Origin: Lepidurus packardi
Taxonomy: Eukaryota; Arthropoda; Branchiopoda; Notostraca; Triopsidae
DNA: 64,000 nt
Direction of reading: 5' to 3'
Assembly (NCBI GenBank): GCA_023053545.1
Contig: JAKZAN010000006.1
Location: forward strand, 2,609,001 to 2,673,000
In this document: positions 1,020-53,213 of the stretch, piece by piece
Layout: each line of letters starts with the position of its first letter
How positions within the stretch are numbered: the first letter of the stretch is position 1
The notes under the pieces: generated by a model
The model's database searches: none
Told to the model about the DNA's origin: nothing
What the model saw: the letters and a program-made list of their open reading frames with translations, nothing else
Translations under genes and position numbers: made by a program

Positions 1020-4000
1020 ATGACCAAAGGAATATCTTTTGGAGGCACTATGTTGTCCCCTTCACCGAGATCTACCACGTTTGGAGCAACTACAGTAGCA
1101 CGACCGAGCTCTAGCCATGCGAATCAGCGTTCCAAAGAAACCATCCATTCGGGGCATTTTATGGTCTCAGATTTTGAAGCTGAGGCCCAAGATGATGAAG
1201 ATGAAGTAGCTATTCCGGTTCCAGAAAGTGACGAAGCTAAAGTTGTAATACAGGCTACTAACGACAATGCCCCTGCACCTGGAGGAGCCAACGAATTGGC
1301 TCCAACAGCGAGCATTGTATTAGACGAGCCCAAAATTTTCGAATCCGGGTTTGGGATGACGATCAGCATCATGCCTGAATTAGCTCTGCCGTACGGAGAC
1401 ATCCCCACCAGAGAACGAAAAAACTCCCAGCCCTCCTTAGCCATTGACCAGTCCCTGACAAAACTTTTTCAATGTATGTCGCTGGCTTACAGGTAAGCCC
1501 TTAAGTTTATATAATTAGTATGTAAGCGATTTTAGGATAGATTCTGCGCAAGCGATACGCAACTAACCACGATAAGCATGCTCAGATACCTTTAAAATTC
1601 TTTTTTTTGGGGGGGAGGCTTATTTTTCTTTGTTAGGAGCATGCTAAGACCGGCACTAAAATTTTACATACTTTGTCGCATTGCTTGCCATAATTCTTGC
1701 TCTAATATACTAACGCACGCGTGTAGCAATGAGTGCAAGATAGGACAGAATGAAAAGACTACAGAAGGCGTATGGCCCTGCCGGGGAGCTTTACTCCCCT
1801 TCGTGTGGTCGATTATTTGAAATTAACACCTCTAACCAAGAAACAAAGATGCTCACTATTACGTTTTTGGGAGGGAGGTTGCTCCCAGCACAGTTTTCAT
1901 TTTGATCTTTTTCTTTCTTGTGACTTGTATCAGTCACAAGCTGACATCTCCTCGCTGGAAAAACTTCAAAGGTCTCCGACTCTCTTGGAAGGATAAAATT
2001 CGTCTCAACAACATCATCTGGCGATCTTGGCACGAGCAATGTAAGATAATTAGCCCCTGCCCTAGACACCTTTTCTATCCTTCCAGAATTTTAGCTTTTT
2101 TTTCTATCCCTTTTCCTCCCTTCCTTTCTTTTCATTTCTTCATTTCGACTGTCGTGTTCGTTGCAAAATCTCCGTTTTCAAATCGTGTCACTGGTATGTT
2201 TGTGACTTCGCTTGGCGTGTAGTGGTCGCATTTTGGGTATTTCATTCTCGTTCCCGCTTGCAAGAGCTAGCTATATAACGGCAAACATGGAAGGTTATAA
2301 TATTTTGATAAGTTAGTCATTGTCATTCCAATATTCAATGAATTACATTCATGGCCTCGCATAGGCAAAAGCTCACATCTCCCAAATGGAATCCCTTCAA
2401 GGGCTTGCGATTGTCCTGGAAGGACAAGATTCGCCTCAATAACGTCATATGGAGATGTTGGCACCTGCAATGTAAGTTACGAACAACTTTTTTTGCAACG
2501 GGAGAAGGGATTTCCCTTTGGTTGTCAAAATCACCAGCTAGATTGTGGACATTTGGAGTAGATGTCTTTATTCTATTGTTTTAGTTCTATGTTCTCATGT
2601 TCCTCTTTTTCTTGCACTGGAATTATTCAAGCGTGCCAGTTTATTTGTAATTTGTACGTCTTCTTCGCCCTTCCACCTTACTTTCTTCCTTTCAACCACA
2701 GTAATTTTACCGTATGTTTAACTGCTAATAATGCAAATTGTCTTGCAGTCGTCCGTAAACAGAGTACGCAGATATGCCAGTTCGCGTCGCCGTTGGAGGT
2801 TGATCAGCATAATAAACCTGAAGTAAGCCAATTTGATAAGTTTATAATGCTACTCAGAATGGAACACTATCTCCTCTAAACACTTTCGTAGGCGGTAGTC
2901 TTGGAAGGCAAATATTGGAAGCGACGTTTAGCAACCGTGACGGCTGAGTACAAAAAGTGGCGGATCTTCTTCAAGAATAAACTTATGGGGCGTAGCTGCA
3001 AGGAGACCGAAGACATTGTACGTAATATCGGCCTAATATTGTAATTTTGATTATTCCTTTTTTAAGTGTATGCATCACGAGCTGGAAGCTCTGGATTGGT
3101 TTGGGCCTCGCTCAAACGGGTCCTGTTCCAATTCCTCGTTTCCCGTAGAAGATGATTTCTATATGGATTTCTCGGATACCTTATTTTCGTCCTTAACTTC
3201 AAATCAGCCTTTTCCCTTTCCGAACCCACGTGAGATAGGTATTATTGTGATCAAAATATGACGTAGTGGCACATATTAATTTTAATTTTGTATAGCGCGT
3301 GGAGTAAGTCTTGCCGATTTTATCCAGCCTGGTTTGGTGCAGTTACAGCCAAATTTGGATGATTTTATGGATACTTTTGAACCGCTGCAAGGTAAATGTC
3401 TTGACTTGCAGAGTTAACATTTTTAGTTGTAATTCTTCAATAGACCTGTTGTCAGTACGACTACCTCCAGTAGAAGAAGAAAGTTCTGCGGTAGACGATT
3501 CAGGAGCCTTCAATGGGAACAATTCCTTGCAAAATTCTTCAGCTCTTTCGAGGGAAGAACCGGCTAGACGAGAGCAGCCCAACGTGACGTCTATGAATGA
3601 ATCTTTTACATCAGCCATGGATGCTTACATGTCTGTAGATGGATCGCCGTCCGAACCAGTCATGTTCTTTACACAGGAACAGCCACGGTCAAACAGAGGT
3701 TTGTCCAATTACGAGCCGAACCAGGCAAATCAGCTGGTCATACGCCAGCTGTTAGTTCAACCTTCACGAGACGCTGAGTCCATTCCACAACAGGTAGAAG
3801 ATTCGTCATTCCTATCTCAACAGCGGCAACAAGAGATGGTAACGTGTGGTTACCTTCCTTCGAATCCCTATATGGAAGCGGAAGTTAGCTCGCAATCCGC
3901 TCAGGAAATTTTCGTCGTCCCCAAAACGTCGTTAAAAACTCGTAGCCGCTCTAGAAGCGGCTCTTCGGTGAATGCTGCTCCTTGCCCGCCCCCGTTGACC

Positions 4001-5733
4001 AATAGATTAACCCTTTCGAGTAGCCAACCGTCCCTTGCTCCACTCCCTAATGTTCACACCTCCAAATCCGCACCAGCTATGAGTCACGGCGGTGCTCGTA
4101 GCAAATCGACCCGCTCGACCCCGTCTACTTTAGTAGCCTCTGCTGTAGCTACCATCTCGTCCTTACCTGCTTCTCGTGGGCCAGGACGAGCAGGAAGTCT
4201 GGGTAACGTTTCGAATCTTGTCACCGCTAATGCCTTAAGGATTCCTGTGCCAAACACGGCGACTCCGACTCTTGTCCAGGAAAACGCCTTAATGCAATTA
4301 TTAACCTCAGGTAAAGGACTTGTCTTGTTCGTTATTCTTCAGTTGGCGCGGCTAATATAACGAGAAGGTTTGTTATTCCATTGCAGATCGTATTTCAAGC
4401 ACATCTTATGTTACGCGCACAGCACTCCCTGCTACACCTGCTCATACCAAGGTTGCCACTTCCTCCAGCCAAACAGTTATCGATACCGGAGGCCTTAATT
4501 TGCTGGCTGACGTTGGGCTGAGGCCGTTCAATCTTTCAGAGGAAACCACACCCAGCTCTGGCAAAAGCAACACCGCCCCTTCCACTCCCACCGCCACGGT
4601 CCCGCCATCTCTTCCCACGACTCATTTGAAACCTTTTCGCCCTAGAGGGGAGCACGAACGGGGACAGTATAAAGTACATAATCTTGAATTTTGCCTTCCC
4701 CTGTTCTTATTTATTTGTGTTCTGTTGGTTTTTAGGAGCACCGCCGGGTATGCCATATCAATGCAGAACAGAAACGTCGTTGTAATATCAAAAATGGTTT
4801 TGATACGCTACATAGTTTGTTGCCTGGCTTAGGAGGCTCAGCGAGTGGGTCTGGTTCAAGTACTTCGCCGTCTCACTCAAAGGTTAGCGAGGTGAGACTT
4901 CAGCGTTCTTATAGGAATGCGTTTTTTTCTCCTGGAGTGTGCAAGGGAATCGAGTTATATATGTGTGTAATTATTGTCATGTGGTTCTGGAATGTTTAGG
5001 TGAGCAAAGCAGCTTTATTGCAGCGTGGAGCTGAATATATCCGCCAGTTGAAGGCAGAAAGGCTTCAGCAAACCGAAGAAGTGGAACAGCTGCGCCAGTG
5101 CATTGAAAGCCTGAACGGGGCCATTAGGTCAGTCAGTTTTAGTGCACACGTAAATGCTAAGATATGACACACCGACTTTTTGCGTTCTTAGTGGTTGCCA
5201 AGCCCAGTTGCCAGCCACGGGAGCTCCCGTTTCGCGACAGCGCTCATCTCGGATCAAAGAAATGTTTGACGAATGGGTTCGAATACGTACCTTGCATAAC
5301 TGGAAATTCTGGATCGTATCCTTTTATGAGCATCACTTAATTTTGATAAATTTGCTCATAAATTAAGTTTGATTGGGTCTTTTCAAGCTGAAGTTTATTA
5401 ACCTTAACTTGAAACACAGTTTAGTTTGCTCATTCAACCATTGCTGAATACCTACGTAGCTACAGTATCTACAGCTAGCATCGATGACTTGTGCCGCACT
5501 GTACTTCAGTGGGTTGATCAGCATTGCTCGCTGGTGGCATTACGCCCAGGTATTCATCACCGTTTCAATCCTCTAACTTAGCGCTAATTGTTTATTTGCT
5601 CGCCTTAGCCGTGCTGTCGTCTCTACGCCATTTAAGTACAAGTACGGATATTTTGACAGACCCTTCCCGCCTTCCTGCTCAGGCCGCACAAGCTGTATGT
5701 AAAGGCGAGCAACCCAGTCAAACACTCCATTAG
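1020..5733 (+). CDS. Mondo: Mondo (MondoA/ChREBP-type) bHLH leucine-zipper transcription factor
   Basis: Glucose-6-phosphate-responsive transcription factor that pairs with Mlx on carbohydrate response elements. Exons: 1020-1492, then either 1934-2040 or 2365-2471, then 2749-2822, 2892-3017, 3067-3238, 3296-3391, 3444-4310, 4387-4673, 4736-4891, 5000-5127, 5192-5315, 5420-5549 and 5609-5733. With one alternative exon this gives 954 residues, close to human MondoA. In order the protein shows IHSGHFMVS (MCR1), SLTKLFQCMSLAY (nuclear export/MCR2), the MCR3 segment in the duplicated exon, KYWKRR...KKWRIFFKNKL (MCR4), NPREI...QPGLVQLQPNLDDFMDTFEP (MCR5/GRACE), a Ser/Pro-rich middle, the basic region HINAEQKRRCNIKNGFDTLH, a zipper, and the C-terminal dimerisation domain (RTLHNWKFWI, LSTSTDILTDPSRLP). 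ATG 1020 was chosen because the frame is closed by TAG at 921. A possible exon further upstream cannot be excluded. Confidence 0.95.
1934..2040 (+). other. Mondo: Mondo alternative exon 2a (107 nt)
   Basis: Acceptor tatcag|TCAC and donor CAAT|gtaaga. It encodes SHKLTSPRWKNFKG, then LRLSWKDKIRLNN and IIWRSWHEQ. The segment matches the MondoA/ChREBP stretch whose helix binds 14-3-3 (MCR3). It has the same length and the same phases (2 in, 1 out) as the exon at 2365-2471. Confidence 0.85.
2365..2471 (+). other. Mondo: Mondo alternative exon 2b (107 nt)
   Basis: Acceptor cgcatag|GCAA and donor CAAT|gtaagt. It encodes RQKLTSPKWNPFKG, then LRLSWKDKIRLNN and VIWRCWHLQ. It differs from exon 2a at about 8 of 36 residues, all outside the shared core. 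Using both exons, or neither, would shift the downstream frame because 107 is not a multiple of three. Confidence 0.85.
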
Positions 5734-9447: not shown

Positions 9448-12400
9448 ATGTCTACCTTTAGTGATGTTCCCAAAGCTACGTTAGAAAAGTTTTCTGGTCA
9501 TGATTTGCCAGCTGCTTGTGCTTGGGAAGAAGATGTGAGATCAAACTTATCAAAGCATAAGGAACGTGTCTTAACTTTGAAGCAACAGTTAGAGAAAGAA
9601 GAACATCACGTGCAATACTTGGAAACATTATTAGCAGATATAGAGCTCCGTAAGCAAAGTGGCAATGATGAAACAGCTACTTCAGACAGCGCTGCTCAAA
9701 CTAAAGCTGAATTAAAAGCTGAAGAAGCAGAGGGTATTAAACCAAATGAAGATTGTGCTGGCTTCGTGACTGTTATAATGATAAGTGAGTCAGAGAAGCA
9801 AAAAGGTGCACAATTGAACGAAAGTCTAGAAGAACTGCAAAGTAAGGAAACAGTAGAGGATTCGCCAGAGCCAGTGCTTACAAGTCAGGAAGATTTAACA
9901 AACAAAGTCCGTCCGCGAGCTCCCCCACCTCCACCCCCTAAACATTTTAAAAGACGAACATCAGAAGACGTCCTGTCAGCCCTAGAATGGACTAAGCAAC
10001 AGATCCAACAGATTGGAAACGGTGTGACTGATACTACGGAAACAAAATCCAGGCGGTCTTCCATGGGACCTGTAAGATCCTTATCTCAGAATTACGAAAA
10101 CGTTCGAACCCAACCCCGGAACTATGAGAATGTGGTTACTTTTCCCCCGAAGCGAATTCATTCTGTTGATTTGCCGATAACTGATTTAGATGAAAAAAAG
10201 TAAGTTAATTACGTAATAGCTTACAACATTATTTAGACGTAATATCCCCGGAAATTCGTAGGGGAAAAAGTCCAACTTTGGTGACAGATCTGGATGAGCC
10301 TACTTCCGGTTGGAAACCCAGTGAAAGCGATGATTCTGCGAAACGTCGCAGTTCCGATGCTTTTGACCGTCCTTTAAAGGAAGGTCCGATGGAACCTATC
10401 CGACCATATGGATTACCGCCAGATTCACTTGGTAAGTGTTACTAAATCAAGAAATTAATCACCCTAAAGTCGCAAACTTTATCAAGTTATATTCTCCTAA
10501 AGAGCTTTTAAACGTGTCCTCGATAGTATAGTGGTGAGTATCCCCGCCTGTCACGCGGGAGACCGGGGTTCGATTCCCCGTCGGGGAGTATTTTTTTTTC
10601 GAGTAAAACCTTGATAAGCCCAAATTCAGTGGACCAAAAAACGCTTCAAGTTATAGGGGTTTCGAGTTATAGAGGGATCAAAATCTACTGCATAAATAAA
10701 CTCTAGTTATGCATTTATTATCATAACACGTCGAATTTTCCAAACAACATAAAGAACTCAGAAAGAGAAGTTCGAGCACTGAAACTTTTACAATATTTTC
10801 TTTTTTTAAAAATTATTGATGCTGGAATATGGAACTTGTTAGCGATGTCCAGATTTTTGCTCCCCTTTGGCAAAGCCTTGGCCACTTCTTTGAGAGTTTC
10901 TATGTTCTGGTTGATCATAAGGATTGTAAACTTGCGTTTTTGCAGCCATTCACGCTTGACTGCAAGTTTAGACAAAGCTTTTCTATACTGTGTAATTTAG
11001 TTGGTGAGAGGAAGCTGATGAAATTCTTACAAAATTCTAAGAAGCTCAAAGACCTATGTCGTTTTATAATTGAAAGGTAGGTCTAGAGAGGGAAAGGTAT
11101 ATTAGATGATTTAGATCACCTCCCAGTTAAAGTTGATATCCTATTCTAAATCCTTTTCTGAATAAAACAAGTATTTCTTACTAGTAGACGTTTCAACTTG
11201 TAGGTTTATGTCAGTTTTTTTTTTTAAAGTTTTTTTTTACATTATTTATGTGGAACAGCAGCCGGGAACATTTTTAGGCTTCGACTTATCAAGGTTTTAC
11301 TGTAAAAATTTTCTCATGCAATTGTTTTCTGCAGTGGGAATATTTCTAGAAACCTTGCGTAGAGTATGTTTTTATTTCGTATTTTTGTTTTTCAGGTTTA
11401 GGAGCAAAAGTTCGAGTTCAAGACTTGGTACAGAAACTGCAGAATGCCCCCATCCGCCCTGCCCCTATACCCGCTGGTTCTTCATTGTCGTGTGCATATC
11501 CTCCAGCTCCTACACACTTTTCTGCGCTTCCTAAAGACCAATACCCTACACTCCCTTCTACGGCTTCACTGGATACAGCTATTAGCGAGCCGCTGTATGA
11601 CTCCGTCCCTCTTGAATCAGGACTTGTGTCCACAGCGTCCACTTCCACCTTACTCTCCAACTCGTCATCGTCTTCGGTTAGATCCGAGACGTTAAAGAGC
11701 AGCGGGAGCGATAAAAGCGGTAAATTTCCTCCAAATTACGAGAATTTGTCGTGGGGAGACGTCACTTCAGAAGAGGATGAGGAATTTACGTTTTATCGCG
11801 GTAGTTCAATAGACGAAGACCGTCCGAAAGAATTGGATTCAGGTATATTCTCAATTTTTTAGTGAACGTATCTTAAGTTGTAGTATGTTCGTGACAGGAG
11901 TTTTTGGCTCATCCGTTGAATCTTTGTCGGCTATTGCTTCAGGTTCTACGGCAACTCGACTTATGATTGCTCAGAATGTGCTGGAAAGCGAGGTGTCGTA
12001 TTTGGAATGTTTATCCGTGCTCTTGCAGTATAAGAAAGCACTCCTTGCTACCCTTACAACGTCACAACCATTGCTAAGTCAGGACGACTTCAATGTGATC
12101 TTTTTCAAAGTGGGCGAGTTGCAACAGCTGCATAGTCAGTTTGCCAATAATCTCAAGGAGGCGTTGGATCGAGGAGGGGCTACAATAGGCGATGCTTTTC
12201 ATCAATGGGTATAATCCTCCCCTTTGAATTTTAATCATTTTAGTTACAATGTTAGTATAATTATTGTCACTTGTAGTCGAATGGGCTTTCATTGTACAGC
12301 AGTTTCCTTCAAAATTACACCCGAGCATTGAAAACAGTAAGGAAATGCTCGCAACAATCTCCAGCATTTGCAGACGTCACGGCTGCTATTCCATTGAAGT

Positions 12401-29654: not shown

Positions 29655-32600
29655 ATGGAGAACGAACACGGAACCACCGAGGTGCCCAACGATCCTGGGT
29701 AAGCAAACTTCCTTTCCATTCGTTTTTTTTTTTACTTCAGACCTTTATGTCTCATGTGATCCATTAATTTTCTAATTACTGCGTGTGACTGTGATTATTG
29801 GGAAATCTAGTAAGTGAAATGGCCATTGGGGAAGGTGAACCGGGGTTAAAGCTAGGGAGTGCGAAGGGTTGAGGGTATTAGGGAGCAAAGTCACGGGGGA
29901 GAGAAAGCAAGCAGAGCATAGGGGATGAAAAGACGGAAAGTAGAGAGATGAGAAGTCGAGGCCACCTTTGCTTTGTTTTTATCGACAAAGCTTATCAAAC
30001 ATCTTAATTGATCAAGTGTTTCCCTTTCTCTCATTCTTCTTGACTTGTCTGGACGGCCCCAAGTAGGGTTTCTTTCATATCTGTCCCTTCGTTATTACCT
30101 TCTCCCATTCGTGTGTATGGGTCTCCTGCCTCATATTCGCATCCTCTCATCCATGTGGTGGACAATATCGAATTATTTTCTACTGCTTTTTTCGGAAGGG
30201 GGGGGGGGGGGGGGGGGGGGGAGGTTCCGTGGTAGCTGGATTGCACATGTTTGGAGTCAAGACGCTGTATGGAAGGCATTGTCTTGGCTGCCATAGCGTT
30301 TTCTGTCGGTATTTCGTAACGTTATTTCCTATAAAAAAAAACGAATAAGGACAGCGTCTATCGTCTCTCTCTTCGTAGCGCTTTTACCTGCAGAACCCTA
30401 CCTGGCGCGCTTTTACCTGTCGTGTTTTGTATGCCGTCTCGTGACTGACCAACAGGCACGTGACTGCGACTAACTCCCAACCATTATTATCCCACTGCAC
30501 CTTGAGTTAGAACCTGTAAGCATCCTATGGTCCAGCATCTCGGGGTTGGGACTATGCTTCCTGTTGTGCTGTCCCCCCCCCCCCCTCAAATGCGAGCAAC
30601 AGCACAATCTTACCTTTTTCCTCATTATTATTCCTCGACGTAACTCATTGTGATTATGCTACTTGCATTTTCCCACACCAGTCCATGCCAGTTTCCACCT
30701 CATAACAACATAGGGGGTGAATCTTAACGAAGTCTCCTAGCATTGAGAATCAAGTCTAGACCAGGAAGCGGGAATGATGTTGGTAAGGTGTCGAAAATGA
30801 AGGAGATGGTAATGGGGTTTGTGTGCGAGTTAATTCAAAAATTATCCTGTGAGTTTAACAATTGTGATGCTTGTGGGAATTTTCTAAGAAAGGAAGAAGT
30901 AATTTTTATAAAGAAAGAAAAACACTCAGTTTTTTCCAAGGAAAAAAAGCAGGAAGAATTAGCGGGGTTTTGGGGAGTAAAAACGTCCAAACCAGAAAGG
31001 AAATGGGAACCATCAATACCCGGTGGGAATTGCTAGGACCAAAAAGGAACCGAAAGAGATTTTTTAAGTTTTTTTTCCTCCTCTGGACGTAAAAAATAAC
31101 GGGTTCTTTTGGGGCAGTTATGTTTGTTTAGTCTTTTTTGGAAGGTCGGGGACACGCCATTCGTATAAGCATTTGACTTTTCATTGATTGTGAAGGTGAT
31201 GAAGCTAACGTTGCGTACCTTTTCTAGGAAAATGTTCATCGGTGGCCTGAGCTGGCAGACGAGCGCGGAAGGGTTGCGTGAATATTTCAGCAAGTTTGGA
31301 GACATCACGGAGGTGATGGTGATGAAAGACCCAACCACGAGACGGTCCAGGTAATCTAAAACATTTCTACATTCCGTAAGTGTGTACCCCTCTGGTGGTT
31401 GTGTTTCGTTATTTGTTACATTTCAGTCACATTCTCATTAGGAAAGCTCATCAAGGACTGTTTGGCAGACTTTTGAGAATTGAGTGTTTGTGACGAAATT
31501 GAAGAAGTTATGCTCTCTGTCAATGTTGTAAGCCCTATGTGATAAGACAAGTCCTCTTAATCTCAGGGTGTGTGTTGAAAATGGGACCTGATGTGCTGGC
31601 TAACGTGTGTATAAGATTGACAATCTCAGAGTCCAATCCTGCTGCTGCAGCTTCGGTTTTACACATGCTAAAAACACGGTATTCAATTATTTGCCCAGCA
31701 ACACCAACAATTTTTTACTTAGCGTGATTTTTTTTTTTCGTGGGACCAAATTTACCTAGTCAACCTCTTAGTATGACCCGTTCGTGGTCCTAACTTTAGT
31801 TGTTTATACACACTTTTAGCCAAACTGACCTTAGGTGTGGGTGTCGTACAGTTTCTATAATGCAGCCGTTTTTCTAGATCAGAATGGACCCGTCCTGAGT
31901 AACCAGAATTTGTGTGTGTTTCTTATAATTTTTTTTACTAGTGCAGTTACCTTTTCGAGAGATAGATCTTAAAAGAAGTAGTCCATAACTCTGCGGACGA
32001 CTCTTACGTAATCCTCTTTGGGGTCTTTTGGAGTCTTGCTCTTCACTAAAACCAACGAAAAAAACGTGTTATGTATAATGTAGCAAAATGAGCTTGATTG
32101 GTCGTTTGGCATTTGTCTTTTTCTTGTTACCCAGTTTTTCGGGAGAAGTGTAATGTAACGGAACTCTTAGGTTTAGCCAGCTCGTCTCCAAAAAACTTAC
32201 TCTTTTCTTTAGTTGTGAGACCAAAAAAAAAGTAATTTACCTGTTTACCTCTTAGGAGCTCTGTTGACTTTTTGGAGTTAGTTGGACAACCTTTATAGAA
32301 TGGCTTTAGAGTGTTTTTCATGTAGCTATAACGCGGACATGTCAGTGTGTGTTTCTGTATTCGGTATTCTTCTAATGAAAAGGCTTGCTTTCTGGGGCAC
32401 GTCTTAATACTTGGGACTGCCAAAACTAACAAAAACTCTTGTGTCGTTAGGGGTTTTGGATTTGTTACGTTTGCGGAAGCTGCAGCCGTGGAAAAAGTGC
32501 TGGCGGCCGGTACTCATGAACTGGATGGCAAGAAAATCGATCCCAAAGTAGCGTTTCCACGACGGGCCCATCCCAAGGTATGTATATCATCTCGAGATGG

Positions 32601-35600
32601 CATGTTGAAATCAAGTTTTTGTTTCCTGTACATTGTTTTATGTGTTTGTTACGTTGCCGTGCCAGTTTCTCACTCACTTGGTTGGCCAAAGATGGTGAGA
32701 GAGTTAGACACGTTGGGGAAACAAACAAAAGACATCTGGACGAGTGGTGTCAATATTTTTGGCCTATTAATCACGTTTGTCTTTTTTTTTTTCGTGTGTC
32801 TTTTGTTTCTGTACGTTGCAGATGGTTACCCGGACCAAGAAAATTTTCGTTGGAGGCTTGTCGGCGCCCACTTCTCTGGATGATGTCAAATCCTATTTCG
32901 AACAATTCGGCAGGGTAAGAAAAGACGACTGTTTTAAATTTAAGCGACATTTTTTTGTCGCGTGTATTAAAAAGAAAATGAAAACCTCGCAAAAAAGCAA
33001 TGCGAGCTTGTTGTTACAATGTAGCCAAAGTGTATCGTTAGTGATCTGGGTCTTGTTCTTGTCCAGAGCCAAAGTTTTTTTTTTTTCAAACTCGTGTGTC
33101 TTTCCTCCCCTTTTTCCCCAGGTGGAAGATGCTATGCTCATGTTTGACAAGCAGACGAACCGTCATCGAGGTAAGTCAGAATTCACGCTACACTATATAC
33201 ACTTCCTATCCAACGTTTTTCGGTCGGGAAGGGCGGTTCAACAGCCGGGTTCGTTAAAAGGAGTGACATATTGGCTTTCTTAGCACTGCTTTGTAAATTT
33301 GTAAAAGTCGTAGAGGAAGGAAGTTGTCGGACGGAGGAACTCGGGGGGAAAAAAGGAGCAGTTGTTTTATTTGGGGCGTTGTGTTCGGTTCGTGCGTACG
33401 CCGAGTAATAAGTTACGTTGCGAAAAAAGAAAAAGAAAAAATAGAAAAAAAGGAAAGAAGTTTAGGGAAACGAAGCTGCATCTTGTCCTTCTCGTCTCCT
33501 TTCCCTAAAAATAACATGGACGCCTTTGGGGTTGGGAAAAAGGAAGGTATAAGAGCGTTGAGAGATGTAGAGACGAGCAAGGTGCATTCTTCGGCATCTG
33601 TTAAGTATGTGTACATGTATATGTGGAGCAAGAAGAACGAAGTAGCTATTCCTTCGAGCTCTATGACGGTTTTATGGGCGTTGGGAAGGATGTGTCAAAA
33701 GCAGCTTCGGAACGGGGTTAAAAACTTAGAAGAGAGGGGGGTACGTATGCCTGCACTGGTTCACGTACTCACTCGGTCTGGTAGGATAGCTTGGGAGTAT
33801 CGAAGGGGCCTAGAGGTATAGCAGGTGTATGAGGGTGGAGCTCGTTCATCATCTTGCCATCCTTTTGACGTCGAGCAAGTTTAAATTGGGGACTCTTGCT
33901 ACTGCTACGGATTCCGTGGCGGAATTTGCGCTCTGCTGATATGCGGTGTGCGGCGTTCGAACCTTAGCGACTGCCACGTGACTGCTAGCCGACGCCCGTC
34001 ATGCTCATTTCCCTTTATTCTCTCTCCTCCTATCTTCCCTTCTTACGTTAACCGTAATAATTGGGAAGTGAGATGAGGAAAGAAGAAGCTCCACAATTAT
34101 TTCGAGTCGTTTTAGATTTGCGCTACCAACGAAGCCTAGCGCGGTCTCAGCGCGCAACTCATCGCATGTTAGATAAACGATTTTTGTAGATTACAGAGTC
34201 AGAAACTATTTCGAGTGCTTTCTTCGAGTTTGGAAATCTGATATCAAAGTTTTCTTTATTTGTTTATTTTTTTAAAGAAAAGAAAAGGATCTTTACTTGA
34301 GTTTGGAATGGGGAGGGAAAAGTTGGTATTGTGAACTAGTATCATGCAAAGAGTAAAGGGAACCTGGCCAAAAACCGAAACTAAATTACAGGCACGGTGT
34401 GAAAATAGCATTAAAGATGATCCTTTGTGCAGAGTTGGGACAAGGAAGCTTTTTTTTTATTGTCGCCTTCCTTGGTAAATGAAACGGGGGAATTAGAGGG
34501 AATTTAAGCGCGTGCATATGCTGCACCTGTCTTGCAACCTGCCTTCTTTTTACGAACGCGGTAATGGTAAGGCTTTCGCTCTGTCTGCATATGCATGTGG
34601 TTTCTTGGCGGTAGTCTATTTGTGGCGACGACAACTCGCGAGTTGGCGAAGACCGGTCCTGACGTCACAAGCCACGCATTCTCCTACGTCCACTGATTGA
34701 TTGCAATCAAAGAGATGATTTGGCACCAGTCGAAGCAAAAAAAAAGAAAAAAGATTGAAGTGCAACAATAAGAGGATAGAGAAGTCGTTCACGTGAGTGT
34801 TGGCGACTTCCGTCGCAAAGGACGTCATTCAGTCCGACAGGTTTTATATTCCTTACGACAAGTTCGGCCAAGAATTTTTGCCGAGTGGACGATAATTCTT
34901 GAGCGCCATTCCAAATACCGTGGTGGGAGTTATTTTGCCAGTTCCTGGGGGCGATTTGGGGGTCTAGTTTCGATGATTCTTGTCCACACTGATGAAACGG
35001 TTCGTGGGACGGACGGGGTCAGGGTTCAGCTTGTTTTGACTAAGCTCGTTGAAGCCTAAAATCCATCTGTCTTCCATGAGTTGGGACGCGCTGAAAATTG
35101 CATTGACCAGGAAGCTGCGTTATTGATGGCTGAATAGCAGGGAAAGCGACCAGAGAACGAATGCGTGTAATGTTGTCGTTCACGAAGGCTTCTACAGTCA
35201 GAGCGGAACTCGCAGATATTTCCAGGCATAGTTTTCATTAGAACTAGAGAGGAAACTTAACGAACCCTCTCTAAACGTCACCTTGGTGTAACAAAGCGGT
35301 TTGTCACGGAATTGTTTCCTAGGTTAGAAGAAGAATTGTCCCCGTTCGCTGTTATTTATGGATGTCTATTTTTCCCCCTTTTTCTGAATTACTTTCCAGG
35401 TTGAGAATTTGAGAATACAATGTTTTAATACTTTTTTTCTCCCGTAGGTTTCGCCTTCGTTACCTTTGAGAGTGAAGATGTCGTGGATAAAGTGTGCGAA
35501 ATCCATTTCCACGAAATTAACAGCAAGATGGTAAGTTTTGCCATTCTTTTTTTTTTTTTTTTGTTAGCTTTATTATTTACTTTTATTTTTAGCCCGTAAG

Positions 35601-44600: not shown

Positions 44601-45429
44601 TATTAGGGACAGTCCTGCAGCGGACCTTTTAGAAGCAATGTTAGTTTGTTGGTTTTTGGAACTATTAGTGGTACGTGAGACTTTGGTTGGTGATTTTGCT
44701 TTGTCCGTGTGTGGCTGAAACAGACAGTTTGTGTTCAGAGTCAATGCTAACAGTTTCCGACTTTACATTACAGTGATGAGCTTGCAGAGCTATGGTCCAC
44801 CTTCTTCGCCAGCCAATTCATCCAACAGACCGTACCCGCCCAATTCGCATCATATTGGCAGTATGGGAATGGGCGTGGGAGGGCCATCGGGCCATGCCCC
44901 ATCTCCGGGTCCATTGGATTTGTACAATGCTGCTGGAGGCGATCAAGGCTTAAACTATGGAGGACAATCTCCCCAGCCAAGTTTCGCCATGGCTAATAGG
45001 GTAAGTGCTCACATGTTATAGAGGGATCTTGAACTGTTTGCCTTTTTCTGGTGCATTTTGTTCCTCCCCCGTGCCTTCCCCCCCCCCCCCCCCCCCCCCC
45101 CCCCCTTGAACCTTGTTTTCGAAGTTTGGGAAATGAACGCGTGCATGCAAGTCCATTTGCGTTTCCGTTTGATTTTTGTTTGTCAACATGAACTTTTCCT
45201 TTTGGTTAATTTTATTTCAAGTACGGTAGTGTTATTTTTGTTTGCATTGAAAATCGGGAAAGTTTTTCAAAAATGTCGCGTTTTTTTCCTTGGTAGCTTG
45301 GTGTGTCACGTTTTTTCAGAATGCCTTTACTCCTAATCTTTGTTCCAAGTGAACGAAAACGCTTAAAGTATTTTTTTTCCGTTATAGGCTCCGTTGATTC
45401 CAGCCCATTACACGAATGGCTATCATTAG
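29655..45429 (+). CDS. msi: Musashi/RBP6-type RNA-binding protein, two RRMs
   Basis: Translational regulator that binds UAG-containing 3' UTR sites. Exons: 29655-29698, 31228-31350, 32451-32577, 32822-32914, 33122-33170, 35448-35530, 37191-37275, 39587-39664, 43440-43592, 43696-43761, 44774-45000 and 45388-45429, giving 389 residues. RRM1 has [20 protein letters not shown] (RNP2) and RGFGFVTF (RNP1). A linker with [17 protein letters not shown] leads to RRM2 with KIFVGGLS and GFAFVTF, then [19 protein letters not shown]. The low-complexity tail is Gly/Pro/Tyr-rich ([18 protein letters not shown]) and ends TNGYH, the conserved Musashi C-terminus, which fixes the last 42-nt exon. Introns reach 3.8 kb, unlike all neighbours. 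Reading on past the donor at 37276 gives an alternative 342-residue protein that stops at 37698-37700. Confidence 0.96.
29699..31227 (+). other. Musashi intron 1
   Basis: A 1.5 kb intron with no gene. It holds a run of 24 G at 30198-30221, a C run near 30570-30585 and a short direct repeat GCGCTTTTACCTG around 30380-30420. Open frames here show no family resemblance. Confidence 0.5.
31351..32450 (+). other. Musashi intron 2
   Basis: A 1.1 kb T-rich intron that splits RRM1. I see nothing specific in it. Confidence 0.5.
33171..35447 (+). other. Musashi intron within RRM2
   Basis: A 2.3 kb intron. The longest open frame (about 165 codons, 33324-33821) has no ATG at its start and no recognisable domain, so I treat it as chance. 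Confidence 0.45.
35531..37190 (+). other. Musashi intron after RRM2, with CRE-like palindromes
   Basis: A 1.7 kb intron. 36803-36831 is a near-perfect 29-nt inverted repeat centred on TGACGTCA and flanked by AGACGTG / CACGTCT. 36943-36960 is a 7-bp hairpin (CACAGAC / GTCTGTG) followed at once by GACGTCA. The spacing, 230-390 nt upstream of the alternative exon, suggests a regulatory element or the remains of a small palindromic repeat. Confidence 0.4.
37191..37700 (+). other. msi: Musashi long alternative exon with early stop
   Basis: The exon that starts with [11 protein letters not shown] has two phase-1 donors (CGAG|gtaggg ending at 37250 and TACG|gtgagt ending at 37275). Without either it stays open to TGA 37698-37700, adding about 140 residues rich in Ala, Pro and Tyr ([26 protein letters not shown]). 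The composition resembles known Musashi tails, so a shorter isoform with its own C-terminus is likely. A stretch this long without a stop in intron-like DNA would otherwise be unexpected. Confidence 0.55.
37701..39586 (+). other. Musashi intron downstream of long alternative exon
   Basis: A 1.9 kb T-rich stretch that would be 3' UTR for the short isoform and intron for the long one. No gene or clear poly(A) cluster was recognised. Confidence 0.35.
39665..43439 (+). other. Largest Musashi intron (3.8 kb)
   Basis: T-rich intron between two symmetrical tail exons. Many short open frames but none with domain similarity or matching splice neighbours. I see nothing else in it. Confidence 0.4.
43762..44773 (+). 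other. Musashi intron before penultimate exon
   Basis: A 1.0 kb intron with no recognised feature. Confidence 0.4.
45078..45105 (+). repeat. Run of 28 C in the last Musashi intron
   Basis: Uninterrupted C homopolymer at 45078-45105 in the intron before the last coding exon. With the 24-G run at 30198-30221 it shows that G/C homopolymers are tolerated in this gene's introns. Confidence 0.9.
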
Positions 45430-50985: not shown

Positions 50986-53213
50986 ATGGGGGCTTCTCGG
51001 CTGCAAAAGGTATTTTTTCTTCCATGATTCAATGGATATTTTGTATTAATCTCGTGTATTCTTAGCACCTCATCTTAACAGCAGTCTTATATCTGGCCCA
51101 GTCGGCTTTAGCCGATTGGAATTCGCAATCGAGTTACCAGCATTCCAACCCAGGTTCTGGGGTATACTCACTTGTGACCAGGAGGAAACGCCAGAATGAA
51201 GATTACCGAACATCCCAAGAAAGTTACGATTTGGACATAGCTGCTTCCGGTAATTTTTGTGGTGGAGTTGTTTATCGAGTTTAATTTTGTTTGGATTTTA
51301 GGCAAGGAAGAGAAAAAAGAGGAAGAGAAAAAGGAGGAAGAGTCGAGTAACAAGGAAGAAAAAGGACATTATGACAACGAGGCCAAAAAAGGTGCCAAGA
51401 AAGGCAAACATGGCAAAGGTATATACATATAACAAATTAAATAAAAGACTGAAACACTTAACTTTGTGGCTTTTTTTAGACGACCATAAATCAAACTACG
51501 ATAAAAGTGGGAAAGCGTACAAAGGAAGTGACGACAAGAAAAAGTACCACGGTGACGAAAACAAGGGCACCAAGGTTCGTATATTTTTTTTTTCATCTAA
51601 AACTGAATTGCCAACAACTTAGAAGTAAAATAATTGTGTTTAAAACATATTCAGGGCAAGAAGGGACTTTCTAAGGGAGATAAAGGCCACAAGACGAAGG
51701 GTTCCAAAACTGACGGCTTTAAGAATGTGTACAGCAAGAAAGAGTTTGGAAAGAATACCAAGTTTTGGGATGACGATGACAACACTAAGTATCATAAGAA
51801 CTATGATGACCACCACTCCTTCCATGATTCCAATAAAGGAGACAAGAAAAAGGTGAGTTGCGTTTCAAGAATATTTTGCATCATTATAACGTCTTTTTCG
51901 CACAGGGAGAGTCCTATAAAGGTGGAAAACATGCGGAATCGCACGGCAAGAAAGGGGGAGATGAAAAAGGACAATTTCACGATGAATTTGCTGGTCAGAA
52001 GGCAAGCTCTGGCAAAAAAGGTACGAATTTCTTACACGAGAAGAAAATCTCAGAAATTACCAAGCAATTGCAAGGAATTGTGTTATTATTCTAAACTATT
52101 CATTTATTTTATGAACGGTACACGTTTCTTACCAATCATCTTATCCTTTCTTATAAAGGTCAACATGGCTCCAAATCAAGCAAAGCCAGCAAGAAAGGAG
52201 GCGGCGGAGGAGGTGGCGGTGAACATGGCGGAGGCGGAGGTGGTGGTGGACATGGCGGAGGCGGAGGTGGCGGTGGACATGGCGGAGGCGGAGGTGGCGG
52301 TGGACATGGCGGAGGCGGAGGTGGCGGTGGACATGGCGGAGGCGGAGGTGGTGGTGGGTACGGCGGAGGCAAAGGTGGAGGCAAAGGTGAAGGCGGTGGA
52401 CATGGTGGAGGCGGAGCTGGCGGCGGACACGGCGGAGGTGGTGGTGGGTACGGCGGAGGCAAAGGTGGAGGCAAAGGTGAAGGCGGTGGAAAAGGTAAGT
52501 TTGAGTAAAAAAAATTGGTAAACAAACATTAGTAATTTCTTAAGGCGATGATGGTGGAGATTATGGACACGGAGCAGGCGGCGGCGGAGGCAAAGGTGCT
52601 GGTGATGAAAGCGGTCATGATGGCGGGGATCATGGCGGATATGGAGCAGGAAGTATATACTTGAAATATTACTTTATTTTTTTACCTGATTAATTTTATT
52701 TATATTTCTTCCTTGGCTTCACAACACTTCAGGCGATCATGGAGGTATGAAAAATTTTAGTACGTTAAAAAAGTGGTTTGTGCTAATGTTTGCATTACTT
52801 AGGTGGAGACGATCATGGTGGCGACGGAGGACATGGTGATGATGAGGGACACGGTGGTGGCGATGAAGGTCATGGTGGTGGTGGTGGTAAGTTTTGCCGT
52901 TATTTTTCTGTGTCGGAATTTATTTTTATTTTTTGAATTTAGATGATCACGGCGGAGATGGCGGTCACGATGAAGACCACGGTGGTGATGAGGACCATGG
53001 GTAAAAATGAAGGAATTAATTTGCTAGATTATTTTAACCTTTGGTTTTTCTAGCGGTGATGGTGACGATGGCGATCATGACGCTGGATACAGTCAAGTTC
53101 GTGTTATAACTGTGCCCAAGAAAGCGCGCGCTAGCGTAAATGTGAAGAGCAACATTCCGAAAAGTATCAATGCGAAAATCGCCATCATGCAAAAGAAAGC
53201 CTTTGATGAATAA
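50986..53213 (+). CDS. Secreted Lys/His/Gly/Asp-rich repeat protein
   Basis: Extracellular low-complexity protein of unknown function, perhaps cuticular or metal-binding. Twelve exons: 50986-51009, 51066-51249, 51302-51418, 51480-51574, 51655-51852, 51906-52020, 52159-52494, 52545-52652, 52733-52744, 52803-52886, 52943-53000 and 53054-53213, giving 496 residues. A signal peptide is visible (LILTAVLYLAQSALA), and a basic site RRKR follows at about residue 48. Next come a Lys/Glu block, an arthropod-like KGHKTKGSKTDGFKNVYSKK segment, Gly8-His repeats from a 27-bp unit, an Asp/His/Gly block (DDHGGDGGH) and a basic tail (VRVITVPKKARASV). The arthropod comparison is from memory. A strong core promoter and clean splice sites show it is a real gene. 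Exons 7-10 are all phase 1-1 multiples of three, one of them only 12 nt. Confidence 0.82.
52224..52494 (+). repeat. 27-bp Gly8-His coding minisatellite with a higher-order copy
   Basis: Five head-to-tail 27-bp units begin with CAT at 52224, 52251, 52278, 52305 and 52332 and encode His followed by eight Gly. A longer block that starts GGTGGTGGTGGGTACGGCGG and encodes a Tyr/Lys-containing variant occurs twice, near 52350-52400 and 52438-52490. The opposite strand gives a long Pro-rich frame that is only a shadow of this repeat. Confidence 0.9.

Follow-up and report, generated by a model that had tools for sequence, protein, structure and literature searches.

Results

Mondo gene structure at the locus

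The DNA analysed (hereafter the window) is a stretch of 64,000 nucleotides from Lepidurus packardi, with a G+C content of 42%. On the forward strand of the window lies a gene with a coding sequence at 1020-5733 (13 coding exons and 954 codons in each isoform; the start codon, like the whole model, was picked by eye). Judged by its sequence this gene is Mondo, of the MondoA/ChREBP/MML-1 type, as a preliminary description had proposed. The N-terminus of the isoform carrying the second of two alternative exons (isoform b, see below) aligned with the ChREBP chain of PDB 5f74 with an E value of 3e-43 (query residues 141-250 to chain residues 81-193, the MCRII-IV part), and the bHLH matched the Pfam family HLH (PF00010) with an E value of 3.3e-13. 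A search of PDB sequences with the 56-residue segment containing the first of the alternative exons (copy a) found ChREBP with an E value of 1e-19; three of the four sequences matched were ChREBP, and the fourth, a capsid protein (E 0.084), was treated as noise. The N-terminal MCR module matched no Pfam family.

The coding part of exon 1 (1020-1492) is an open frame with MCRI-like and MCRII-like sequence, which ends 2 nt into a codon at a GT donor at 1493. Its motif IDxxLTxLF aligned with ChREBP of 5f74, as did IHSGHFMVS; the MCRI stretch, aligned with residues 18-61 of the chain, is not significant by itself (i-Evalue 7.4). Exon 3 (2749-2822) carries the end of MCRIII and exon 4 (2892-3017) is MCRIV-like (AVVLEGKYWKRRL). 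Exons 5 and 6 (3067-3238 and 3296-3391) hold MCR6-like and putative MCRV-like segments. The MCR6 signature, as quoted from PMC3323566, fits them by eye at 10 of 12 positions. Exons 7 and 8 (3444-4310 and 4387-4673) make up the middle region, with an open frame in both isoforms; exons 9 and 10 (4736-4891 and 5000-5127) encode the bHLH-zipper, and exons 11-13 (5192-5315, 5420-5549 and 5609-5733) the C-terminal region up to the stop. A putative WMC/DCD dimerisation region at the C-terminus was recognised by eye, and no Pfam model matched it.

The intron at 5316-5419 (+) has the donor GTATCCTT and a CCTTAAC element shortly before its CACAG end, features that agree with the consensus for minor (U12-type) introns. 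The remaining 12 introns of the gene are U2-type in appearance, by eye. Elsewhere in the window, a tRNA-Asp (GTC) gene at 10517-10588 (+) was found by both ARAGORN and Rfam; no other Rfam family reached its gathering threshold anywhere in the window. A run of 28 C occupies 45078-45105, and arrays of 27-, 21- and 30-nt units at 52200-52500 (+) are readable as a very glycine-rich protein segment.

A tandem pair of homologous exons

Between exons 1 and 3 lie two exons, 2a (1934-2040, HKLTSPRWKNFKGLRLSWKDKIRLNNIIWRSWHEQ) and 2b (2365-2471, QKLTSPKWNPFKGLRLSWKDKIRLNNVIWRCWHLQ), both on the forward strand, each of 107 nt and separated by 324 nt. Each has AG immediately upstream and GTAAG immediately downstream (donors GTAAGA and GTAAGT, respectively), and both are built of 1 nt, 35 codons and 1 nt, the phase that matches the end of exon 1 at 1492 and the acceptor of exon 3 at 2749, common to 2a and 2b. 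The coordinates and sites thus agree with the tandem pair of equal phase and consensus splice sites that the preliminary description had reported, and in-frame translation gave the very peptides that it had quoted. The two exons are neighbouring and homologous, of similar length, and with conserved splice sites and frame, the properties by which tandem exons are recognised in PMC3228551. Translated with either exon, the model stays open through all 954 codons without a stop.

The introns around the pair (1493-1933, 2041-2364 and 2472-2748; 441, 324 and 277 nt) are the three longest of the 13 introns of the gene (one-sided Mann-Whitney p 0.0035), the other ten being of 49-108 nt with a median of 63. 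Such long introns, in a gene that is compact elsewhere, would suit a regulated exon. The pyrimidine fraction across the 13 acceptors was 0.50-0.77; exon 2a stands at 0.77 and exon 2b at 0.55, low but within the range, and four of the 11 others are as low or lower. To call exon 2a the default form would be a guess.

Full-length protein requires exactly one of the two exons

We followed the reading frame through the other two combinations. When both exons are skipped, the frame runs into a stop within exon 3, at 2756 (codon 161, with 10 junctions downstream); when both are included, it does so within exon 4, at 2896 (codon 256, with nine junctions downstream). Since both meet an early stop, full-length Mondo can come only from messages with a single exon, and the pair is organised like mutually exclusive exons, a conclusion that the gene structure supports. 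The preliminary description had held that exclusivity is built into the gene structure; this stands for usable protein, but not for the choice made in splicing, as the frame says nothing about the spliceosome. Incompatibility between the major and minor spliceosomes as a cause of exclusivity was set aside on inspection, all three donors around the pair reading GTAAG.

The pair is apparently old and constrained

The peptides of the two exons are identical at 28 of 35 residues, and their nucleotides at 80 of 107 (28/35, 31/35 and 20/35 at codon positions 1, 2 and 3, respectively). By the Nei-Gojobori method dN was 0.167, dS 1.35 (a rough value, from 35 codons) and dN/dS 0.12; a Fisher test on rounded counts gave p 1e-5 for selection between the copies. 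Under neutrality, simulated sets of 26 substitutions over the 105 codon bases produced on average 17.1 amino-acid changes, with a minimum of 10 in 20000 trials, in contrast to the seven observed. The 150-nt intron stretches flanking the exons gave alignment scores of 11 and 13, below the maxima of 15 and 19 reached by 200 shuffles. Because dS is high, dN/dS is 0.12 and the flanking introns can no longer be aligned, the pair is apparently old and constrained, and neither a decaying copy nor an assembly duplicate. A pseudo-exon was rejected on the dN/dS and on the seven changes against the neutral minimum of 10.

An all-against-all protein comparison of the 2119 ORFs of the window (stop to stop, at least 20 residues, after masking of low complexity and with an E cut-off of 1e-3) gave the exon pair as the strongest match, with E 3e-19, on which chance similarity of the exons was rejected. 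Four ORF pairs matched, three of them being the exon pair itself (one match on the strand of the exons and two on the opposite strand). The remaining pair, at 31169-33280 (+), consists of ORFs that share 41% identity across 34 residues (E 1.9e-5) and resemble the two RNA-binding domains of a Musashi-type protein; a 43-residue piece of these ORFs had no match in Pfam. A third copy of the exon was not found in the window in an ungapped search of six frames at a threshold of 11/35 identical residues. An alignment of both copies with ChREBP, run against viral and prokaryotic contigs only, gave 66 and 41 pattern matches and no relative, a result uninformative for animals.

Residues changed between the copies

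Aligned to ChREBP, exon 2 corresponds to residues 99-133, that is, most of MCRIII with most of the 14-3-3 helix; the matches to the 4gnt peptide and to the 5f74 chain bear out the earlier claim that the exon contains this helix. Identity to ChREBP over the 35 residues is nearly equal, 24/35 for copy a and 23/35 for copy b. McFerrin and Atchley (PMC3323566) list nine residues of MCRIII as invariant in the family, and both copies keep all nine (P104, W106, F109, R121, L122, N123, N124, W127 and R128).

The isoforms differ at eight residues (a/b): 98 S/R, 99 H/Q, 105 R/K, 107 K/N, 108 N/P, 125 I/V, 129 S/C and 132 E/L. The first of these, absent from the preliminary description, is the codon split by the junction, where AG of exon 1 is completed to Ser by the T of copy a and to Arg by the G of copy b. 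At 105 it is copy b that has the ChREBP-like Lys, copy a having Arg. Position 132 is Glu in copy a, and hydrophobic in copy b and in ChREBP. In both copies Lys replaces R117 of ChREBP at the start of the helix.

Candidate RNA pairing in the flanking introns

The intron upstream of 2a contains a purine element, GGGAGGGAGG, at 1869-1878, the one between the exons a pyrimidine tract at about 2095-2150, and the one downstream of 2b a second purine element at 2500-2511. The CU tract at 2106-2124 can pair either with 1869-1878, looping out 2a, or with 2500-2511, looping out 2b. Competing pairing as good as this occurred in 4/200 shuffles and at 5/80 sites of the same geometry in the window, by a rule of three-base overlap that was set after the stems had been seen; the first competing-pair score was equalled in 3/200 shuffles. 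Taken one by one, the best stem between introns 2 and 3 was equalled in 9/200 shuffles, and the best stems between introns 1 and 2 and between introns 1 and 3 were at chance level (55/200 each). In the ensemble of 1493-2748, pair probabilities were 0.57-0.77 for the stem 1869-1878/2115-2124 and 0.14-0.20 for the stem 2106-2117/2500-2511, and at most 0.04 for the other five candidate stems. Folding z was -2.3 for the stretch around 2a and -1.4 for that around 2b, with -2.0 and -0.5 for two coding controls. A similar pattern, in which the outermost introns pair with introns inside the cluster, is reported for mutually exclusive exons (PMC6071210). On these weak statistics, a docker-selector-like RNA control of the choice between 2a and 2b is possible.

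Functions that the exon choice may change

The preliminary description had suggested that the two isoforms differ in retention by 14-3-3, so that the exons would give forms with different cytosolic localization. The exon does hold most of the solved 14-3-3 peptide (117-137), and the changes I/V 125, S/C 129 and E/L 132 fall within it. In addition, copy a alone has Ser98 and Ser129 (Arg and Cys in copy b), and 14-3-3 binding of MondoA depends on serine phosphorylation according to a review (PMC10218701); because of these serines and this dependence, we gave different retention somewhat more weight. ChREBP, however, is reported to be a phosphorylation-independent client of 14-3-3 (PMC7414219), and all nine invariants, as well as I120, N124, W127, R128 and W130, are the same in the two copies; I120, N124, W127 and R128 are reported to lie at the ChREBP interface with 14-3-3 and with bound ligands in ternary complexes with small molecules or macrocycles (PMC7414219, PMC12865133). 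On a helical wheel the changes at 125, 129 and 132 lie on one stripe, at about 122 degrees to the average direction of I120, N124, W127 and R128; the argument is crude, because W130, on which the binding of ChREBP to 14-3-3 reportedly depends (PMC3323566), itself lies 104 degrees off the contact stripe. According to the same paper, ChREBP needs the helix 116-135 and R128 for 14-3-3 binding, and residues 100-115 for activation but not for that binding; three of the five changes outside the helix (105, 107 and 108) lie in 100-115. Since the contact and invariant residues are kept in both, both isoforms probably still bind 14-3-3, and we regard a difference in retention as unlikely, with the serines of copy a in favour of the earlier suggestion and the conserved contacts against it.

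The clearest candidate for a difference between the copies is K107N/N108P, in a motif resembling a MAPK-docking site. The conserved KWKxFKG[LIV][KR]L at 105-114 fits the ELM expression for MAPK docking, its role in Mondo being a prediction (PMC3323566). Using the expression as printed there, we found a match in ChREBP and in copy a (RWKNFKGLRL) and none in copy b (KWNPFKGLRL), which breaks a lysine of this conserved sequence. The pattern is loose, as 13.7% of shuffles of residues 99-116 of copy a match it. From these comparisons we infer that altered kinase docking, or another altered face of the module, is better supported than different 14-3-3 retention.

The copies may also have divided the ancestral features between them, which would be compatible with a tuning of functions other than 14-3-3 binding: copy a keeps the ChREBP-like K107 and N108, and copy b the ChREBP-like hydrophobic residue at 132. 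The near-equal identity of the copies to ChREBP agrees with this, as does a pattern like an export signal at 122-132 in copy b (LNNVIWRCWHL) and ChREBP (LNNAIWRAWYI) that is absent there in copy a, so that E/L at 132 might possibly affect export. But the export-like pattern is loose: it appears in 42% of shuffles of the segment of copy b, 24% of copy a and 11% of ChREBP, and has a second match at 112-122 in both copies that ChREBP lacks; moreover, ChREBP is one outgroup only, and its K105 is found in copy b rather than in a. We consider such a division distinctly improbable. It is still harder to credit that one exon is a near-silent relic, or a poison exon that lowers Mondo output. Truncation upon double inclusion and double skipping would suit it, and so would the low pyrimidine fraction of the 2b acceptor, yet that acceptor has its equals within the gene, and the low dN/dS at a dS of 1.35 with nine of nine invariants in 2b indicates long constraint at the protein level. 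Duplication in the assembly or between haplotypes can practically be dismissed, as the exons are identical at only 80/107 nucleotides and their 150-nt intron flanks align no better than shuffles.

Discussion

The above results are best explained by a tandemly duplicated, alternatively used exon of Mondo, in which control by 14-3-3 would be kept and other functions of MCRIII tuned; we assign this reading a probability of roughly 0.72. By the logic of the frame, each mRNA for full-length protein carries exactly one copy of this part of MCRIII, 2a or 2b, and transcripts with both exons or neither would stop early and be expected to undergo nonsense-mediated decay. The switch would more likely tune functions of MCRIII other than 14-3-3 binding: exon 2a has, and exon 2b lacks, the KWKxFKG kinase-docking-like motif beside a conserved S-P site, and a side face of the helix changes at 125, 129 and 132. 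In this way the switch would govern the degree to which the low-glucose inhibitory module undergoes modification, export or release. A bolder proposal, which we offer tentatively and hold to be rather doubtful, is that one exon makes a Mondo that is docked and modified by a MAP kinase, and the other a Mondo blind to it and with an altered helix face, both remaining under 14-3-3 control, so that certain tissues or states alone would link stress or growth signalling with nutrient sensing.

In Mondo proteins, 14-3-3 binding and glucose-dependent activation come together in MCRIII. Activation of ChREBP is inhibited by mutations that abolish its binding to 14-3-3, but also by others that leave this binding intact (PMC3323566). 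Two naturally occurring versions of MCRIII, both constrained at the protein level, are a ready experiment on the roles of single residues. Splicing is a route by which nutrient sensing could be tuned, and should both exons be in use in the living animal, its sugar sensor would exist in two tuned forms.

The type of mechanism, a tandem exon swap, is well known: Dscam, Mhc, 14-3-3 zeta and srp are named among the genes with tandem mutually exclusive exons (PMC6071210), and counts in human and fly give many genes with swaps of tandem duplicated exons (PMC9741552). For Mondo, MondoA or MLXIP we found no description of a mutually exclusive exon pair in the open-licence literature, so far as its text was available. 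The available portions of PMC10932287, PMC4424892, PMC11055387, PMC7618037, PMC3228551, PMC6071210 and PMC9741552 do not describe it. Among the first four of these, a pig splicing atlas has MLXIPL among the differentially spliced factors, with the type of event not given in the available part, and another has MLXIP among the alternatively spliced genes. The anatomy of a familiar mechanism is seen here in a gene for which, within that open-licence text, it appears not to have been described.

Like the clusters of the Dscam and Mhc type, the Mondo pair consists of homologous neighbours of equal length and phase, swaps one segment of the protein, is constrained at the protein level and has candidate competing pairings. 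It differs from them in its host gene, a nutrient-sensing transcription factor, and in that the exon choice is here predicted from gene structure. Its introns are mutually dissimilar, whereas the clusters of PMC6071210 show intron similarity above random. ChREBP alpha and beta are likewise alternative forms of a Mondo-family factor, but they arise from alternative first exons, 1a and 1b (852 and 675 residues; PMC10218701), and not from a homologous internal pair. The closest counterpart is the MCRIII/14-3-3 helix of ChREBP itself (PDB 4gnt, 5f74, 6ygj and 9gcp), which is the same segment with the same invariants as in the Mondo pair. Unlike ChREBP, the Mondo gene described here encodes this segment in two versions, both with lysine at the position of R117.
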